From: Bacteroidetes bacterium GWA2_40_15
Lineage (GTDB): Bacteria; Bacteroidota; Bacteroidia; Bacteroidales; VadinHA17
Assembly: GCA_001768195.1 (NCBI GenBank)
Contig: MENI01000032.1
Location: forward strand, 22,285-72,539
Length of the DNA stretch: 50,255 nucleotides
Direction: 5' to 3'
This document shows positions 31,034 through 39,179 of the stretch, one piece after another; positions within the stretch are counted from its first letter, which is position 1, and each line of letters starts with the position of its first letter. Position numbers and translations under genes: made by a program. A model generated the notes under the pieces. It did no database searches, was not told the origin of the DNA, and worked only from the letters and a program-made list of their open reading frames with translations.

Positions 31034-32395
31034 TTATACCGGCACATCTATTTTCGATATAGCATCTTCCACCTCTGCTGTTGTCAGCTCATGATCGGGC
31101 AGATTATTTTCGAAGTACTTCTCATAGGCAGAAATATCAAAATGGCCATGGCCGCTGAGGTTGAAGAGAATATTTTTTGATACACCTTCAAGGTCGGCTT
31201 TTCTTGCTTCATCAAGTGCGCCTGCTATTGCATATGAAGATTCAGGTGACGGGAGTATCCCTTCTGTCCTGGCAAACAGGACAGCACCTTCAAAGCATTC
31301 CCTTTGCATCTTGGCTTTTGCCTCAATGAAACCGTCCTTGAGAAGCTGGCTTACAAGCACTCCTGCACCATGGTAACGCAGACCTCCTGCATGGATCTTA
31401 TCAGGCATGAAGTTATGTCCCAGTGTGTACATCGGAAGGAGAGGGGTCATACCTGCTGTATCGCCAAAGTCATAGGTGAACTTGCCTTTTGTCAGTTTAG
31501 GGCATGATGAAGGTTCCACGGCTACAAGTCTGATATTCTTACCATGCTGCAGTTTTTCGCGGAGGAATGGAAATGCTATTCCTGAAAAGTTTGATCCGCC
31601 TCCGAAACAGCCAATCACCACATCCGGATAATCTCCGGTCTTTTCAAGCTGAATCATTGCTTCCTGTCCGATTATGGTCTGGTGAAGGATTACGTGATTA
31701 AGTACACTGCCAAGTGAGTATTTAGTATAAGGATCCTGTACGGCAACCTCTATTGCTTCGGAAATTGCTATACCCAAACTTCCTGGTGACTCCGGATCAA
31801 TTTCAAGAACTTTCCTTCCCGCTGCTGTCAGTGTACTGGGCGAAGGAACAACCTTGGCATTGTAGACGTTCATCATAAGTTTCCTGCCAGGCTTCTGATC
31901 ATAGCTGACTCTGACCATGAAGACCAGCAATTCCATACCGAAGTGGTTACATGCAAAACTCATTGCGCTTCCCCACTGGCCGGCTCCTGTTTCTGTGGTT
32001 ATTCTCTTTATACCTTCCTGCTTATTATAGTAAGCTTGTGCTATAGCAGTATTGGCTTTATGAGAACCGGAATAGTTTCCTCCTTCATACTTGTAGTAAA
32101 TCTTACTTTTTGTTCCCAGCGCTTTTTCCAGACTGACAGCCCTGAACAGAGGCGACGGACGATAAGTATGATAGAGGTCGCGAACCTCCTCCGGTATGTC
32201 TATATACCTTTCCGTTGATACTTCCTGCTTTATAAGTTCCATCGGGAAAATTGCAGAAAGGTCCTCCGGACCAACAGGCTGCCTTGTTACCGGATTCAAT
32301 GGAGGCAACGGTTTGTTAGGCATATCTGCCATAATATTATACCATTGCCCCGGCATTTCTTTCTCGCTTAAGATGATTTTTCTGAGTTTTTCCAT
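31034..32395 (-). CDS. trpB2: Tryptophan synthase beta-like PLP enzyme, TrpB2 type
   Basis: 453 aa from the ATG at 32395 (MEKLRKIILS); the frame extends 20 residues upstream, but that part overlaps the attenuator leader. TrpB2 (TrpB-related, TIGR01415-like) group: long N-terminal extension with GQWYNIMADMPNKPLPPL, PLP lysine 113 in SGSHKANTAIAQ, catalytic Glu135 in TTETGAGQWGSA, phosphate loop GCFGGGSNFSG. It makes Trp from indole and serine, or salvages indole. No trpA or other trp gene lies in the window. It is placed after aroA but has its own promoter and Trp leader, which is direct evidence for regulation by tryptophan. Confidence 0.88.
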   Translation of the reverse strand: MEKLRKIILSEKEMPGQWYNIMADMPNKPLPPLNPVTRQPVGPEDLSAIFPMELIKQEVSTERYIDIPEEVRDLYHTYRPSPLFRAVSLEKALGTKSKIYYKYEGGNYSGSHKANTAIAQAYYNKQEGIKRITTETGAGQWGSAMSFACNHFGMELLVFMVRVSYDQKPGRKLMMNVYNAKVVPSPSTLTAAGRKVLEIDPESPGSLGIAISEAIEVAVQDPYTKYSLGSVLNHVILHQTIIGQEAMIQLEKTGDYPDVVIGCFGGGSNFSGIAFPFLREKLQHGKNIRLVAVEPSSCPKLTKGKFTYDFGDTAGMTPLLPMYTLGHNFMPDKIHAGGLRYHGAGVLVSQLLKDGFIEAKAKMQRECFEGAVLFARTEGILPSPESSYAIAGALDEARKADLEGVSKNILFNLSGHGHFDISAYEKYFENNLPDHELTTAEVEDAISKIDVPV

Positions 32396-32435
32396 AGGTC
32401 TAAATTTTATGTAGGTTAATAATTGCATACAAGAA

Positions 32436-32515
32436 AGGCACGCTGTGAACAGCATGCCTCTATACAGAAATATTTTCTACTCTTATAAAATGCCTTGTTT
32501 CACAGCTTTTTCAGG
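32436..32515 (-). promoter_or_regulatory. Trp attenuator: terminator and antiterminator of trpB2
   Basis: On the minus strand the terminator stem AGGCATGCTG (32459-32450) pairs with CAGCGTGCCT (32445-32436), ten pairs with one G-U, loop TTCA, followed by TTCTTG. An alternative stem uses GCTGTGAA (32506-32499) with TTCACAGC (32449-32442), which takes the terminator loop and half of its 3' arm. A third option, CAGCT (32522-32518) with AGCTG (32507-32503), would sequester the antiterminator arm. The layout fits classical ribosome-stalling attenuation. All pairings are read from the sequence; function is inferred. Confidence 0.75.
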
Positions 32516-32673: not shown

Positions 32674-33924
32674 TCATTCATGAACCGTGGCTCCAAGCGT
32701 CCTGAGATCATCAAAGAAGCCGGGATATGATTTACCAACACACTGTGAATCTCTTATGTATACTCTTCCTGAGGCTTTCAATGCTGCAACAGCCATAGCC
32801 ATTGTAATACGGTGATCATCATGCGATTCAACCTTTGCCCCTTCAGGTTTTCCGCCGGTGATGCTCATAATATCGCCATCAATATCTATCATTATCTTAA
32901 GTTTTCCGAATTCCAGGCGCAGAGCCTCAGCCCTGTTGCTTTCCTTGTGAATAAGCCTTGTAACCCCTTTAATTGTTGAAACTCCGTCGCAATATGCCGC
33001 AAGTACAGTAAGGGGAGGAAACAGGTCGGGTGAATGAGTCGCGTCAAAGCTGAAAGCTTTAAGCGGGGAATGTGAAATCCAGACCGAATCATCGCTTATC
33101 TTCATCTTTGCTCCTGCATCCCTTAATGCATCAAGAATTGTCATATCGCTTTGTCTGCTTGCCTTCTGAAGTCCGGTTATGGTCAATTCTCCATTGATGG
33201 CGCCTGCAACTAACAGGAATGCTCCGCCGCTCCAGTCACCTTCAACTGTATAATCATAAGGGATATACTTCTGGTTACCAGGTATTCTGAAAAGCGAGAA
33301 GTTTTCATTATGTATGGTTACCCCGAATGACTTTAAAATCTGTATAGTCATTTCTATATAGGGTTTGCTTTTCAGGTCATTGACTTTTATTTCCGAATCC
33401 TCCTGAGCCAGAGGTAATGCCATTAACAATCCGGTAAGGAGCTGACTGCTTACAGATCCGTCAATTTCACATCTGCCTCCCTTAATGGGTCCTTTAATTG
33501 TCAGGGGTAGAAATCCTCCTGAAGATGTGCAACTGACTCCCATCTGGTTCAACGCCTCCTCAATCATTTTCATCGGCCTCTTCCTCAGGGAATTTGCTCC
33601 TGTAAGTATAATCTTTTCGGGGAATAAGGCTGCAATAGGCGAGAACATTCTTATAGCCAGGCCCGATTCGCCGCAGTTAAGTTTTGATTCTCTCAGGTTA
33701 CCTGTTCCGTCAACGATCATCTTATCGCTGTGTGGTTCGATCCGTGCTCCAAGACCGACGGCAATGCTCATAGCGGCCAGCGAATCATCACAGTAGGACG
33801 GATTATGGATAGTGCTTTGTCCGTCAGCAAGCAGTGCGGCAGCAATTGCACGCTGGGTCATACTCTTTGATGAAGGCGCTTTTACAGTGCCTTTCAGTGG
33901 AGACGGATCAATATATCTTTCCAT
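32674..33924 (-). CDS. aroA: 3-phosphoshikimate 1-carboxyvinyltransferase (EPSP synthase)
   Basis: 416 aa, sixth step of the shikimate pathway, joining PEP and shikimate-3-phosphate. Motifs: GTVKAPSSKSMTQRAIAAALLADG at the N-terminus (substrate Lys and Ser), NCGESGLAIRMFSPIAAL, GSVSSQLLTGLLMALP, and DDHRITMAMAVAALKA. Both inverted half-barrel domains are complete. It is the last gene of the Phe/Tyr block, 174 bases after the DAHP synthase/chorismate mutase gene. Its own promoter was not recognised. Confidence 0.93.
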   Translation of the reverse strand: MERYIDPSPLKGTVKAPSSKSMTQRAIAAALLADGQSTIHNPSYCDDSLAAMSIAVGLGARIEPHSDKMIVDGTGNLRESKLNCGESGLAIRMFSPIAALFPEKIILTGANSLRKRPMKMIEEALNQMGVSCTSSGGFLPLTIKGPIKGGRCEIDGSVSSQLLTGLLMALPLAQEDSEIKVNDLKSKPYIEMTIQILKSFGVTIHNENFSLFRIPGNQKYIPYDYTVEGDWSGGAFLLVAGAINGELTITGLQKASRQSDMTILDALRDAGAKMKISDDSVWISHSPLKAFSFDATHSPDLFPPLTVLAAYCDGVSTIKGVTRLIHKESNRAEALRLEFGKLKIMIDIDGDIMSITGGKPEGAKVESHDDHRITMAMAVAALKASGRVYIRDSQCVGKSYPGFFDDLRTLGATVHE

Positions 33925-34098: not shown

Positions 34099-35199
34099 TC
34101 AGGGAGTATTTTCGTCATTCATTACTTTCATCTGGTGGTTGATCGACTCCTGGTGAATTGCCTTGAATATTGCATCAATCATTTCAGCGCTGAGTCCCTT
34201 GGCCTGTCCTTTGACAATAGCTTTCTTAATTATTTCATCCCACCGGATGCTCTGCAATATAGTGATATTATTTGCCTTTTTATAGCGTCCGATAGTTTCT
34301 GCAACTTTCATTCGTTTTTCCATCAGGTCGAGAAGATGCTCATCATAAACGTCTATCTGCTGCCTCAGTTCACCGAGTACATCGAGCATTTTCGGATCGG
34401 CCGGATTCGGATTTCTCATGATGAGCCTGCTTAACAGCTCTTTAAGGTCATTTGGCGTAACCTGCTGCGCTGAATCACTTAAGGCTTTTGCCGGATCGAT
34501 ATGCGACTCTATCATGAGACCGTCGAAGTTCAGGTCCATTGCCTTCTGAGATATTTCGTGGAGATATGCCCTGGCGCCGGCAATATGACTCGGATCGCAA
34601 ATTATGGGAAGATCGGGGATCCTTCGTCTCAGTTCGATCGGAAGCTGCCAGTTGGGCTGGTTACGATAAAGTGTCTTTTCATATGATGAAAATCCCCTGT
34701 GAATAGCTCCGATCCTTGTGATACCGGCCCTGGCGATACGCTCTATTGCACCCATCCATAGCTCAATATCAGGATTTATGGGATTCTTTACAAGAACCAT
34801 AACATCAACGCCCTGCAGTGCATCCGATATTTCCTGTACTGTGAAAGGATTAACAGAAGTTCTTGCCCCGATCCAGAGCATGTCAATGCCATATTTAAGC
34901 GCTTCATAAACATGGCGTTCATTGGCAACCTCTGTTCCCACAAGCATTCCGGTCTCCTGTTTTACTCTCCTGAGCCATTTCAGACCTTCCGAGCCAACTC
35001 CCTCAAATGAATCAGGACGAGTACGCGGTTTCCAGATGCCGGCACGGAATACACTTATTTCATTAAGCGATGCCAGTTGCCTGGCAGTCTCCATTACCTG
35101 CTCTTCGGTTTCAGCGCTGCACGGGCCGGAGATAAGAAATGGTCTGCCTTTGTACCCTTTCCAGTCGGTTATTTGCGAATTTTCGATTTTCAGTACCAT
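34099..35199 (-). CDS. Bifunctional DAHP synthase / chorismate mutase
   Basis: 366 aa. The N-terminal domain about 10-265 is a type I-beta (KDO8P-like) DAHP synthase: FLISGPCSAE, VFRAGIWKPRTRPDSFEG, LWIGARTSVNP, IGAIHRGFSSYEK, ICDPSHIAG. The C-terminal domain about 280-355 is an AroQ chorismate mutase: LGELRQQIDVYDEHLLDLMEKRMKVAETIGRYKKAN. The fusion ties entry into the shikimate pathway to the branch into prephenate and is common in Bacteroidota. It lies within the Phe/Tyr operon, and a heptamer array fills the 51 bases separating it from tyrA. Confidence 0.92.
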   Translation of the reverse strand: MVLKIENSQITDWKGYKGRPFLISGPCSAETEEQVMETARQLASLNEISVFRAGIWKPRTRPDSFEGVGSEGLKWLRRVKQETGMLVGTEVANERHVYEALKYGIDMLWIGARTSVNPFTVQEISDALQGVDVMVLVKNPINPDIELWMGAIERIARAGITRIGAIHRGFSSYEKTLYRNQPNWQLPIELRRRIPDLPIICDPSHIAGARAYLHEISQKAMDLNFDGLMIESHIDPAKALSDSAQQVTPNDLKELLSRLIMRNPNPADPKMLDVLGELRQQIDVYDEHLLDLMEKRMKVAETIGRYKKANNITILQSIRWDEIIKKAIVKGQAKGLSAEMIDAIFKAIHQESINHQMKVMNDENTP

Positions 35200-35205
35200 T
35201 TTTAA

Positions 35206-35253
35206 AAGTTGAAAGTTTAAGTTTAAAGTTCAATGTTGAATGTTCAAAAGTTA
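35206..35253. repeat. Degenerate heptamer array, AAGTTNA type
   Basis: AAGTTGA, AAGTTTA, AGTTTA, AAGTTCA, ATGTTGA, ATGTTCA, then AAAGTTAA: mostly period seven, reaching into the tyrA stop codon. It occupies the whole spacer between tyrA and the DAHP synthase gene. Confidence 0.65.
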
Positions 35254-36096
35254 ATTCAGTATTTTCCTGATCTTGTTTGCTTCTTCCATAAGGTTTTTTA
35301 ATCCCTCCATATCTTTATCCTTTATCATTTTCCTGAAGAGATTCATTTTTTCTATGTAGGTATCCATTACTTCAATAATATATCCTGAATTTTCAATAAA
35401 GATAGGAGCCCAGGTTTCCCCGTTGCTTTTTGCCAGACGGACCGTACTCTCAAATCCTCCGCCGGCAAGCGCAAGAATATTCTCTTCCTCCTGTTCTTTT
35501 TCCAGAACGCTTAATGCCAGCGAGAATGATGTGATATGCGATATATGAGATATATAGGCAACATGGATATCATGTTCTGACGAGTTCATATATACCTTTC
35601 GCATATTGAGTATATCCAGCATCTGTTCAGCTTTAAAGAGAGCATCAGGGTCACTCAGTTCCTTATCGCAGATTATAACATTCTTGTAATCAAAAAGTTT
35701 TCCGATTGCTGCCAGGGGGCCTGAAAACTCGGTTCCTGCCATTGGGTGTGCAGCTACGTATCTGCCTCTTGCAGGATGGTTTCTTGCTGCTTCTGCCATA
35801 CCCACTTTTGTTGACCCCATATCTGTTACAACTTTTGATGTGCCCGCAATCCTGTCAAGTATTGATGGAAGCATTTTACAATTAGTGCTTACCGGTGTGG
35901 AAAGAATTATCAGTTCACTTCTGTCTATTGCATTTTCCAGTGTCTCAATTTCATCAACCAGTCCGCACAGTTTTGCAATATTCTGATGGTGCAGACTTGA
36001 ATCAACCCCTATTATCGTGTCTGCAAATTTGCGTTTGCGAAGGTCCACTGCCATTGACCCTCCGATGAGTCCTATTCCTACTATTGCTATTGTCAT
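35251..36096 (-). CDS. tyrA: Prephenate dehydrogenase
   Basis: 281 aa, NAD(P)-dependent oxidative decarboxylation of prephenate to 4-hydroxyphenylpyruvate on the way to tyrosine. Rossmann motif GIGLIGGS (residues 7-14), VTDMGSTK, and AAHPMAGTEFSGPLAA, which carries the catalytic His. No fused chorismate mutase or ACT domain; mutase activity is provided by the neighbouring fusion gene. A start one codon block upstream is possible but lacks the Rossmann beginning. Confidence 0.92.
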   Translation of the reverse strand: MTIAIVGIGLIGGSMAVDLRKRKFADTIIGVDSSLHHQNIAKLCGLVDEIETLENAIDRSELIILSTPVSTNCKMLPSILDRIAGTSKVVTDMGSTKVGMAEAARNHPARGRYVAAHPMAGTEFSGPLAAIGKLFDYKNVIICDKELSDPDALFKAEQMLDILNMRKVYMNSSEHDIHVAYISHISHITSFSLALSVLEKEQEEENILALAGGGFESTVRLAKSNGETWAPIFIENSGYIIEVMDTYIEKMNLFRKMIKDKDMEGLKNLMEEANKIRKILN

Positions 36097-36200: not shown

Positions 36201-37370
36201 TTATCTTTCATTCATATATTTAACGAACCTTTCTTTGGCTTCATGTAATTTTTCTTCAGTGGCACACAGCGAGATACGGATATACCGTTCGCCATTGAGG
36301 CCGAAAATAAATCCGGGTGTTATGAATACATGTGTTTTTTGAAGGATGTTTTCAACATAGTCTTCACATGATTTTATCTTTTCCGGGATTTTTCCCCATA
36401 CAAATAATCCAACCTGTTCTTTATTATACCGGCATTTGAGGATATCCATTATCTCTTCAACAATTTTGCGTCGCCGGGCATACACTTCATTAACAGTATC
36501 GTACCACGAATCCGGATTATTAAGCGCTTCGGCTGCGGCTGCCTGCATCGGAAGGAACATCCCTGAGTCCATATTGCTCTTGACTTTAAGTATACTTTTA
36601 ATATATTCCTGGTGACCTGCGACCATTCCGATACGCCATCCGGCCATATTCTGCGACTTGCTTAATGAGTTCAACTCCAGCGCTGTATCCTTCGCACCTT
36701 CTACTGCAAGTACACTGGTGTATTCTTTGTTCAGAATAAAGCTGTATGGATTGTCATTGATAAGAAGAATGTTGTTTTTTCCCGCAAACCTGACCAGTTT
36801 TTCGTAGAGAGCCATCGATCCCTTTGTGCCTGATGGCATGTGAGGATAATTGATCCACATGAGTTTAACATTACTCAGATCGCTTTTATCAAGAGAATCC
36901 AGATCGGGGAGCCAGCCTGATTTTTCAGTAAGATCGTATTTTCTTACTATGCCCCCGACAAGATTAGTCACAGATGTATATGTGGGATAACCCGGATCAG
37001 GAACAAGTACCTCATCGCCCGGATTGACGAATGCCATGCTGATATGCATAATGCCCTCCTTGCTTCCCATCAGAGGCAGTATCTCATTATCGGGATTCAG
37101 ATCAACATGAAAATATTTTTTGTACCATTCTGCAAATGCTTTCCTCAGGGCAGGAATACCGGTATAACTCTGGTACCCGTGCGATGCCGGCTTCTGCGCT
37201 TCAGCAATAAGCGCCTCAACCGTGCCGGCTGATGGTGGCTGATCGGGACTTCCGATACCAAGGCTGATGATATTGGCTCCTTCTCTCCTCATCCTGTCGA
37301 TCTGGGCAAGCTTTTGTGAGAAGTAATACTCCTGAACTGATTCCGTACGTTTTGCAGGTTTAACTTTCAT
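36201..37370 (-). CDS. Class I/II pyridoxal-phosphate aminotransferase (aromatic-block)
   Basis: 389 aa from MKVKPAKRTE at 37370; upstream extension would run into pheA. Fold type I aminotransferase: SLGIGSPDQPPS, GYQSYTGIPALRKAFAEWY, DPGYPTYTSV, NYPHMPSG (variant of NNPTG), Asp206/Tyr209 in LINDNPYS, PLP Lys238 in NSLSKSQNMAGWRIGM. It overlaps pheA by 11 bases and so is translationally linked. In this block it most likely transaminates phenylpyruvate and 4-hydroxyphenylpyruvate (or prephenate). Sequence resemblance to LL-diaminopimelate/aspartate aminotransferases leaves the exact activity open. Confidence 0.88.
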   Translation of the reverse strand: MKVKPAKRTESVQEYYFSQKLAQIDRMRREGANIISLGIGSPDQPPSAGTVEALIAEAQKPASHGYQSYTGIPALRKAFAEWYKKYFHVDLNPDNEILPLMGSKEGIMHISMAFVNPGDEVLVPDPGYPTYTSVTNLVGGIVRKYDLTEKSGWLPDLDSLDKSDLSNVKLMWINYPHMPSGTKGSMALYEKLVRFAGKNNILLINDNPYSFILNKEYTSVLAVEGAKDTALELNSLSKSQNMAGWRIGMVAGHQEYIKSILKVKSNMDSGMFLPMQAAAAEALNNPDSWYDTVNEVYARRRKIVEEIMDILKCRYNKEQVGLFVWGKIPEKIKSCEDYVENILQKTHVFITPGFIFGLNGERYIRISLCATEEKLHEAKERFVKYMNER

Positions 37371-38190
37371 ATAACATATCTCCTTTATAATATACACCAA
37401 GTATTTCAAGGTCGCTTGTGTGGTCTCTCAATACTCTTTTAATGACGTCAGAGTTTGTATCCTTCGGCAGTTCAAGATCGCAATAGAACATATACTGCCA
37501 TTCTCCGTTAAGTCGTGGCACAGACTGGATTTTGGAAAGGTTTATTTCCATTTCAGCCAGTTTGACAAGTACTTTTGCAAGTGATCCGGGTTTATGTCCG
37601 GTTGAGAAACAGATAGATACCTTATTACCTTTTTTGTTTCCCCTTTCCTCCGGACCAACAACGAGAAACCTGGTGTAGTTTTGCTTGTAAGTCTCTATTC
37701 CGGGGGCAATAATTTTGAGGCCATATATCCGTGCCGCTTCCGAGGAGGCAATTGCAGCAATACCTTTCAGTTTGTTTTCACTCACCTGTTTTGCACTTCC
37801 TGCTGTATCATCACTTTCCATCAGAGTCCATGAGGGGTATTTCTTAAGGAAGTCCATGCATTGTGCAAGGGCAATGGGGTGTGAACGGACCTCATGAATA
37901 CTATCAATAGTCTGACCGGGTAATGCCATGAGATTCTGTATGATACGCAGGTTGTGTTCTCCCAGCATTTTCATCCCCGATTCGCGTATAAGAGTATAAT
38001 TTTGCAGGATGCTTCCTGACCTTGCATTTTCGATGGCCATAACGGCATAATCTGCTTCGCCGGCAAGCACGGAGCCAATAGTATGATCAAAAGTAGAGCA
38101 GGGAACAATCTCTATTTTATCATAATTAAAGTACTGCCTTGCAGCTACTTCATGAAAACAACCTTTCTCTCCCTGTATTGATACTTTCAT
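37360..38190 (-). CDS. pheA: Prephenate dehydratase with ACT domain
   Basis: 276 aa. The PDT domain about 1-180 carries ENARSGSILQNYTLI and the diagnostic NYTRFLVVG. The ACT domain about 190-270 (HKPGSLAKVLVKLAEMEINLSKIQS) gives feedback control by Phe. Converts prephenate to phenylpyruvate. First gene of the Phe/Tyr operon, 86 bases behind the leader stop. No fused mutase. Expression is expected to be set by the Phe attenuator immediately upstream. Confidence 0.93.
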   Translation of the reverse strand: MKVSIQGEKGCFHEVAARQYFNYDKIEIVPCSTFDHTIGSVLAGEADYAVMAIENARSGSILQNYTLIRESGMKMLGEHNLRIIQNLMALPGQTIDSIHEVRSHPIALAQCMDFLKKYPSWTLMESDDTAGSAKQVSENKLKGIAAIASSEAARIYGLKIIAPGIETYKQNYTRFLVVGPEERGNKKGNKVSICFSTGHKPGSLAKVLVKLAEMEINLSKIQSVPRLNGEWQYMFYCDLELPKDTNSDVIKRVLRDHTSDLEILGVYYKGDMLYES

Positions 38191-38206
38191 TTCCTTCCCT
38201 GTTATT

Positions 38207-38276
38207 AAAAAATCAAGGGTCCTTTTCGGGGACCCTTGTTATCATATAAATCTTTTATTTGTATACAACAATCCCC
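38207..38276 (-). promoter_or_regulatory. Phe attenuator: terminator and antiterminator before pheA
   Basis: Terminator stem CAAGGGTCC (38238-38230) with GGACCCTTG (38222-38214), loop of seven, then six T (38212-38207). Antiterminator: GGGGATTGTT (38276-38267) pairs with AACAA and TCCCC within 38240-38228, ten pairs around a three-G bulge. The two structures exclude each other. The antiterminator arm begins immediately after the leader stop codon, so a ribosome ending there would hide it. Confidence 0.8.
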
Positions 38277-38342
38277 TTATCTCTTCTTAAAATAAAAAAA
38301 GAAGTAAAAAAAGGTGAAAGAAAATTTGTATACAATATTCAT
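38277..38342 (-). CDS. Phe-rich leader peptide before pheA
   Basis: Twenty-one codons: MNIVYK, then FSFTFFYFFFYF, then KKR and TAA. Eight Phe and three Tyr codons. The operon makes both amino acids, so a shortage of either charged tRNA could stall the ribosome. Short UTR after a clear promoter. Confidence 0.85.
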   Translation of the reverse strand: MNIVYKFSFTFFYFFFYFKKR

Positions 38343-38362
38343 TATTCGTGCTTATTGGCTTA

Positions 38363-38392
38363 CAAAAGTATACTATTTTTCAGAATAACAAA
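38363..38392 (-). promoter_or_regulatory. Promoter of the Phe leader/pheA operon
   Basis: TTTG (38392-38389), an 18-base spacer and TACTTTTG (38370-38363), a near-ideal Bacteroidota promoter, 20 bases before the leader ATG. Farther upstream, 38450-38530 holds a G/C-hairpin repeat with CCCACCCCTAACCCCTCC. The gene-free 38191-38588 is thus leader, promoter and repeats. Confidence 0.7.
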
Positions 38393-38544
38393 TTAAATTC
38401 TAATAAAAATGTGTATTACGTTATTTTTTGTATAAGGGCATTTTTTACAATTCCCCCTTTGAAGGGGGCATGGAGGATGTTCTTCGAAGAATAACCCACC
38501 CCTAACCCCTCCCAGGAGGGGAACTCTAAGCCCAAACCTTCCTG

Positions 38545-38592
38545 CCTCACTCCTCACTCCTCACTCCTCACTCCTCACTCCTCACTCCTCAC
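38545..38592. repeat. Heptamer array, CCTCACT type
   Basis: Six exact copies and one partial copy of CCTCACT. The last copy contains the TGA stop of hisIE (38589-38591). Confidence 0.9.
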
Positions 38593-39179
38593 CCCTTATG
38601 CCGTTCCTTAAGCACCTCTTCAATTTCCTGAAGCGAAGTTCCTTTTGCCCTTAGCAGTATCAGCAGATGATAGAGAAGGTCGGCTGCCTCGTTCTTAAAG
38701 AGATCGTCATTATTATCCTTTGATTCGATAACGAGTTCTACCGCCTCTTCTCCAACCTTTTGTGCCACTTTGTTAATGCCTTTTTTATAGAGCTTATTGG
38801 TATATGAGTCCTTTTCATCATCGTCAATACGCTGATTAATAACCTGCTCAAGGTTGTATAAAAATCCTCTGGCAGTATCGGTGCCAAAGCATGAATTGGT
38901 ACCGATATGGCATGTCGGACCTGCTGGTTTTGCTTTTATCAGTATCGAATCATTGTCACAATCAGTCAGTATCTCTTTAACATACAGAAAATTACCCGAT
39001 GTTTCTCCTTTTGTCCAGAGACGGTTTTTACTCCGGCTGAAGAATGTTACTCTGCCTTCTTTAGTGGTTTGTTCAAGTGCTTCCTGGTTCATATAGCCAA
39101 GCATCAGAACCTGTAATGTGGCATTGTCCTGTATAATAACGGGTACAAGTCCGTTTCCCTTGGTGAAATCTATTTTCAT
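38589..39179 (-). CDS. hisIE: Bifunctional phosphoribosyl-AMP cyclohydrolase / phosphoribosyl-ATP pyrophosphatase
   Basis: 196 aa from the ATG at 39179 (MKIDFTKGNGLVPVI); the frame runs 17 codons farther but lacks conservation. PRA-CH domain about 1-105: FFSRSKNRLWTKGETSGN, DCDNDSILIKAKPAGPTCHIG with Asp/Cys metal ligands. PRA-PH domain about 110-196: GINKVAQKVGEEAVELVIE. It does steps 2 and 3 of histidine synthesis. It is separated from hisF by 219 bases that hold a MITE-like element, the only break in the operon. Confidence 0.93.
   Translation of the reverse strand: MKIDFTKGNGLVPVIIQDNATLQVLMLGYMNQEALEQTTKEGRVTFFSRSKNRLWTKGETSGNFLYVKEILTDCDNDSILIKAKPAGPTCHIGTNSCFGTDTARGFLYNLEQVINQRIDDDEKDSYTNKLYKKGINKVAQKVGEEAVELVIESKDNNDDLFKNEAADLLYHLLILLRAKGTSLQEIEEVLKERHKG

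Follow-up and report, generated by a model that had tools for sequence, protein, structure and literature searches.

A probable ribosome-mediated attenuator with interleaved Phe and Tyr codons upstream of pheA in a Bacteroidota genome

In this study, we analyzed a stretch of 50,255 nucleotides from Bacteroidetes bacterium GWA2_40_15 (contig MENI01000032.1; this whole stretch is called the window below), and found that the minus strand between hisIE (end 38589) and pheA (start 38190) most probably carries a ribosome-mediated transcription attenuator of the pheA-aminotransferase-tyrA-aroFH operon, which would read the supply of both charged tRNA-Phe and charged tRNA-Tyr. The leader ORF, the helices, their conservation, the covariation of one helix (1:2) and the association of Tyr codons with operon content were all computed. 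The features are as follows, in the direction of transcription.

38389..38392, minus strand: TTTG element, -33-like (from the sequence)
38363..38370, minus strand: TAnnTTTG element, -7-like, TACTTTTG (from the sequence; TAnnTTTG in 52 of 52 genus regions)
38277..38342, minus strand: leader ORF, 21 codons plus TAA (ATG at 38342, TAA at 38279-38277)
38325..38336, minus strand: region 1, leader codons 3-6, partner of region 2 (from the genus alignment, codons 4-6)
38258..38276, minus strand: region 2, GGGGATTGTTGTATACAAA, left arm of the antiterminator (GGGATTnTTGT in 52 of 52 genus regions)
38228..38240, minus strand: region 3, AACAAGGGTCCCC, shared by the antiterminator (as right arm) and the terminator (as left arm)
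38214..38238, minus strand: terminator hairpin (regions 3:4)
38207..38212, minus strand: T6 tract, where the attenuated transcript is predicted to have its 3' end
37360..38190, minus strand: pheA, first structural gene (used to find the relatives), whose product we take to be prephenate dehydratase
36201..37409, minus strand: presumably a class I aminotransferase (next gene in relatives)
35251..36096, minus strand: tyrA, presumably of the prephenate dehydrogenase type (gene order in relatives)
34099..35199, minus strand: aroFH, taken to be DAHP synthase fused to chorismate mutase (gene order in relatives)
32674..33924, minus strand: aroA, presumably of the EPSP synthase type (gene order in relatives)

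The genes behind the leader thus follow in the order pheA, aminotransferase, tyrA, aroFH and aroA, and we assume that aroFH supplies precursors for both Phe and Tyr. The aminotransferase ORF as listed opens at TTG, and its true start is probably nearer 37370. The aromatic cluster ends, after aroA, with a TrpB-like gene (31034-32455, minus strand), and a short tandem repeat of GAGTGAG units occupies about 38545-38595, between hisIE and the leader promoter.

Most elements had been proposed by a sequence-only reading of this DNA, and they held up well. First, the near-ideal promoter claimed there consists of TTTG (38392-38389), an 18-nt spacer and TACTTTTG (38370-38363). Bacteroidota promoters have the consensus TTTG / TAnnTTTG, which this putative promoter fits; TAnnTTTG was located within the first 40 nt in all 52 upstream regions of the genus, and a scan of 37800-38800 for sigma-70 promoters gave no site. 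Transcription would start near 38356. Second, the predicted leader peptide, MNIVYKFSFTFFYFFFYFKKR, indeed has 21 codons, including eight for Phe and three for Tyr. Third, the antiterminator arm said to begin right after the stop codon, GGGGATTGTT, starts at 38276, the first base after it. Finally, the nine-pair terminator with six T was recovered as described, with a stem at 38238-38214 (nine pairs, six of them G-C), a 7-nt loop and the tail ATTTTTT. In the window sequence, the duplex of regions 1 and 2 was computed at -10.6 kcal/mol and that of regions 2 and 3 at -18.2 kcal/mol. The parts expected of an attenuator are therefore present: a short ORF with many codons for the amino acids that the operon makes, an intrinsic terminator between this ORF and pheA, a mutually exclusive antiterminator, and a protector pairing of the leader ORF with the antiterminator arm, the energetic role of which looks weak in the fold of G000.

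The leader is not a chance ORF, and the main evidence for this is its conservation. Within the window, it had the top Phe+Tyr fraction among 812 ORFs of 12-40 codons (458 + 354). When the intergenic region was dinucleotide-shuffled 2000 times, no ORF of 25 codons or fewer held at least 11 Phe/Tyr, and two shuffles gave an ORF of 12-40 codons with that many; the folding of the leader region was equalled by one of 200 shuffles. Eight consecutive TWY codons occurred once in the 4.77-Mb assembly (reversed control pattern, five times), and the region-2 motif also once, as an exact match with up to one mismatch allowed (reversed control, three times). Because the reversed controls were as frequent or more so, these whole-genome counts were not used as an argument against chance.

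Conservation was analyzed in 63 genomes of the same genus, 57 of which had a pheA match; 52 upstream regions were aligned, and G019, G035, G041, G052 and G057 were left out for a missing gene start or a divergent copy. The leader passed the automatic filter in 50 of the 52 regions, the exceptions being G008, in which the frame continues past region 2, and G031, which has a short leader with five aromatic codons. In codons 11-18 of the 34 leaders with 21 codons (one of them perhaps a second, incomplete copy in G059), the first base was T in 266 of 272 cases, the second T or A in 268, and the third T or C in all 272. This pattern is a coding signature that selects exactly Phe and Tyr codons. Thus, the loss of Phe codons in close relatives, which the sequence-only reading had named as a ground against itself, was absent, and the Tyr codons were kept as well. 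Codons 13, 14 and 16-18 were nearly fixed as Tyr or Phe (30 leaders), so that the two residues are not freely exchangeable at every place. Trp codons were also seen inside the Phe/Tyr leaders of the genus members G011, G023, G038 and G054.

The helices were then followed in the same alignment. For 1:2 (codons 4-6), 91.6% of 466 cells were paired, and 27 cells had changed on both sides, compared with a shuffle mean of 7.1 and none of 500 shuffles reaching as many. Two of the five measures computed were not exceptional, namely pairs with a both-side change (51 of 500 shuffles as high) and further pair types (98 of 500). A shift of the partner by one or three columns abolished the 1:2 pairing, and a shift by two columns reduced it to 79.0% or 56.2%, a residue explained by the near-palindromic region-2 motif. 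The 2:3 helix, which contains G-U pairs, was computed for all 52 regions at -11.3 to -21.9 kcal/mol, with 92.5% of 572 cells paired. No covariation of 2:3 was found in the genus alignment, in which its arms are nearly invariant; therefore, it was examined by a permutation test outside the genus instead.

A metabolite- or protein-binding structured RNA, with an incidental ORF, might also account for a strongly conserved region 2, which is among the most conserved stretches of the upstream region, and at gathering score Rfam gave no match in the window, riboswitch and T-box families included. However, the codon-position signature, with its invariant T or C at third positions, the leader stop codon adjoining region 2, and the Phe/Tyr-rich leaders upstream of pheA in other genera and families, where the arms differ in sequence, all argue against this explanation, which we consider very improbable.

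Beyond the genus, the pairing was analyzed in 146 leader-terminator units. The pairing of each unit's own region 2 with its own terminator arm had a mean of -15.3 kcal/mol, compared with -9.99 kcal/mol when partners were permuted, and none of 2000 permutations was as good. In 144 of the 146 units, own 2:3 pairing was stronger than its own shuffles were on average, and for 64% of units the own partner ranked in the top 10% of all partners. The arm sequences in loci of other genera and families differed from those of the genus. The predicted alternative pairing is thus kept across many families, each arm fitting its own terminator, and this conservation of alternative hairpins supports the attenuator interpretation first made from one sequence. 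Mixed Phe/Tyr leaders before pheA were identified in named Flavobacterium, Sphingobacterium, Saprospiraceae, Cyclobacteriaceae and many Bacteroidales. At the order level, 60 of 139 genomes with a match were sampled, many of the others being already included, and four of the 60 coincided with named loci; the class-level sample comprised six of 52, five with mixed leaders and one (G137) without, and stands outside the counts.

Folding models gave a less direct picture of the switch. In an equilibrium model, in which the full leader was folded with the ribosome footprint masked in 50 genomes, the terminator won on average at every ribosome position. The mean antiterminator probability was 0.00 for ribosome-free RNA, rose to 0.18 with the A site at codon 8 and returned to 0.00 by codon 15; the probability exceeded one half in nine of the 50 genomes at codon 8 and reached a maximum of 0.11 in the window's own sequence. 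The peak of antitermination, at codons 6-11, was therefore weak. An element that terminates or is read through constitutively, without translational control, would agree with the strong advantage of the terminator at equilibrium, but the alternative pairing, kept across many families with arms matched to their own terminators, argues against it, and we regard it as extremely improbable. For an attenuator, the advantage of the terminator throughout means that the switch must depend on the order of folding. When the nascent RNA before region 4 was folded (G000 only), 2:3 formed with A sites up to codon 18, and the antiterminator was lost from codon 20 to the stop. The ribosome-free nascent RNA of G000 also formed 2:3 and not 1:2, which counts against a strong role for 1:2; that role rests on covariation more than on energy. 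The modeled results agree with a control stretch at about codons 5-13, which holds both Tyr and Phe codons, and in these models folding energies alone are poor at explaining the switch.

From these features we infer the transcription start, ribosome stalling, termination and an OR logic, which together suggest the following mechanism. A ribosome slowing down midway through the Phe/Tyr run would cover region 1 and free region 2, which would pair with region 3 before region 4 is made, so that transcription enters pheA. A ribosome reaching the stop codon would instead cover region 2; region 3 would then pair with region 4, and transcription would stop near 38207. If the leader is untranslated, 1:2 should form and the terminator should again be favored. 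Since Tyr5, Phe7, Phe9, Phe11, Phe12 and Tyr13 all lie where a stalled ribosome masks region 1, shortage of either Phe or Tyr should open the operon, as in an OR gate.

Whether the Tyr codons are read can be judged from operons of different gene content. We analyzed 153 pheA loci that lie outside the genus alignment and have enough sequence; of 165 loci, 12 were excluded (nine of the window's genus and three with short upstream sequence), and G057, of the window's genus, was kept among the 153 loci and the 146 units for its divergent pheA copy. Loci were called linked if the operon also had the aminotransferase, tyrA or aroFH, which gave 134 leaders: 132 by a distance cut-off plus G466 and G467, moved from solo to linked because their aroFH and tyrA lie at 1293 and 1372, beyond the cut-off. 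With that cut-off, a leader was lacking in six linked and seven solo loci.

As proposed for a Phe+Tyr sensor, in which Tyr would be expected only where the operon makes Tyr or the shared precursor, all 134 linked leaders had Tyr in the 12-codon core, and 133 had at least two (the exception, G333, had one), whereas six of seven filtered leaders of split pheA genes (G087, G097, G474, G107, G067 and G537) had none. The seven split leaders represent four genera in four families, and G537, retrieved alongside the class-level sample, is counted among them. Fisher's test gave p about 7e-10 over loci and 7e-8 for the four split genera against all linked loci, neither value being corrected for relatedness. 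Among the split leaders, G097 and G474 had two Tyr near the peptide end, outside the core; the solo locus G479 had one Tyr ahead of its Phe run, and another solo locus, L154, which is weaker and below the filter, had four Phe and one Tyr. The same division was observed inside single families: in f19, G087 (solo) was Phe-only and G387 and G467 (linked) were mixed, and in f1, G067 (split) was Phe-only and G064, G065, G066 and G069 were mixed. The pheA gene of G067 lies near a contig end, and its aminotransferase-aroFH pair is on another contig.

In 11 of 14 split genomes examined, a separate tyrA/aroFH operon had its own leader with three to six Tyr (G087, G107, G097, G395, G534, G474, G367, G423, G495, G551 and G068; four of these, G097, G395, G474 and G534, are from one genus). 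No partner-operon leader was found in G067, G479 and G537, the last two having little upstream sequence. In G423, G495 and G551, an aminotransferase lies about 1.5 kb downstream of pheA; these genomes have no pheA leader, so that reclassifying them as linked changes no leader count. The presence of Tyr in linked leaders, its absence from split cores and the Tyr-containing leaders of the partner operons indicate that the codon set follows the operon's products. Thus, the suggestion that the leader may sense both amino acids, a guess from one sequence when first made, gains support from the contrast of linked and split operons, as far as codon content can tell. Trp codons occurred in the Phe/Tyr leaders L286 (G423), L287 (G495), L288 (G551), L218 (G107) and L283 (G367), for example FYFWFYYF before tyrA-aroFH, as though these leaders read Trp in addition. 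Trp shares the DAHP synthase step.

The same comparison bears on an ordinary Phe-only attenuator, in which the Tyr codons would be neutral (TTT to TAT is one change) or serve to break U runs. A run of Phe codons is U-rich, and in 253 close genus pairs, which are not independent, Phe-Tyr exchanges (348) outnumbered differences between Phe/Tyr and other codons (228), as this explanation would have it. However, Phe-only leaders exist and interrupt their U runs with TTC (G087), and neither neutrality nor U-run breaking accounts for core Tyr codons that are universal in linked leaders, missing from nearly all split ones and found again before separate tyrA/aroFH operons. We therefore consider it unlikely, and favor an attenuator that reads both Phe and Tyr.

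Two leader-terminator units in series, each with its own terminator, were found in 16 of the 128 loci having such a unit: L170, G069 (L086), G065 (L088), G083 (L092), G093 (L105), G413 (L225), G499 (L229), G439 (L230), G466 (L240), G471 (L252), G365 (L262), G414 (L264), G333 (L269), G519 (L272), G354 (L275) and G429 (L277). A specialization of the tandem units, one for Phe and the other for Tyr, was rejected, as all units of the 16 loci hold both codons. One antiterminator of G333 is weak (-5.6 kcal/mol). L137 was left out of the tandem count, as was the outermost of three ORFs in G466, because a single terminator is shared by two ORFs. Two leaders were also seen in L141, G350 and G304, which are not in the tandem count; in G304, from another order, they stand in a row. 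Taken together, we lean towards the view that OR-gate attenuators of this kind occur phylum-wide, that their codon set splits with the operon (pheA leaders Phe-only, tyrA/aroFH leaders Tyr-containing and in some cases with Trp), and that about one-eighth of loci are stacked, perhaps for a sharper response.

Peptide-leader attenuation of pheA is textbook knowledge. The pheL leader of Escherichia coli has Phe codons and is not known to have Tyr codons. The E. coli pheL-pheA system (RF01859) resembles the one described here in its Phe-rich leader, alternative hairpins, pheA gene and ribosome-mediated logic; in contrast, Phe and Tyr codons are interleaved here, and the operon also has tyrA and aroFH. 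In enterobacteria, thrL reads Thr and Ile, and ilvL reads Ile, Val and Leu. These systems are alike in that a single leader senses several of the amino acids which its operon makes, but they concern other amino acids and another phylum, and here the codon set follows operon splitting. The Rfam model of Phe_leader (RF01859) scored 23.7 bits (E 0.16) against a gathering cut-off of 55, and the match was rejected as non-specific because the His leader of the same window gave 22.8 bits. This second attenuator-like region lies before hisG (45847-45788 and 45760-45732, minus strand), with the leader MFCRNSHHHNFHSCFQARR (four His), a TATCTTTG box upstream and an 11-bp terminator with a T run; Rfam His_leader scored 24.7 bits on it, under the cut-off of 49.

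The pheA gene of E. coli is among the attenuated operons listed in PMC1183508. Structured 5' elements before pheA and hisG were described in Flavobacterium psychrophilum, occurring in other Flavobacteriaceae genera and lacking Rfam hits, together with clues for leader-peptide attenuation before amino-acid operons (passages of PMC9723704). The pheA element of F. psychrophilum thus concerns the same gene and the same phylum as the window's attenuator, whereas the mixed Phe/Tyr leaders found here come from other Flavobacterium (L157, L192) and not from F. psychrophilum itself; the passages on that element make no mention of Phe/Tyr codons, dual sensing or tandem units. Passages of PMC7366714 describe sORFs like leader peptides in B. 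thetaiotaomicron, and the word pheA is absent from that paper; those of PMC4974804 concern tandem attenuators of Mg transporters. Neither Phe/Tyr dual leaders nor tandem aromatic attenuators were among the matches listed in open-access text. The mechanism is already known; neither its dual nor its tandem form turned up in the open-access literature covered here.

Within the open-access text covered, there are few descriptions of how amino-acid synthesis is attenuated in Bacteroidota. Dual sensing should be directly testable by codon swaps, since leader codons track the gene content of the operon, and the tandem units provide a natural setting in which to see the contribution of a second attenuator. 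Leader codons that follow operon gene content would represent a case of evolution adjusting the input of a sensor.
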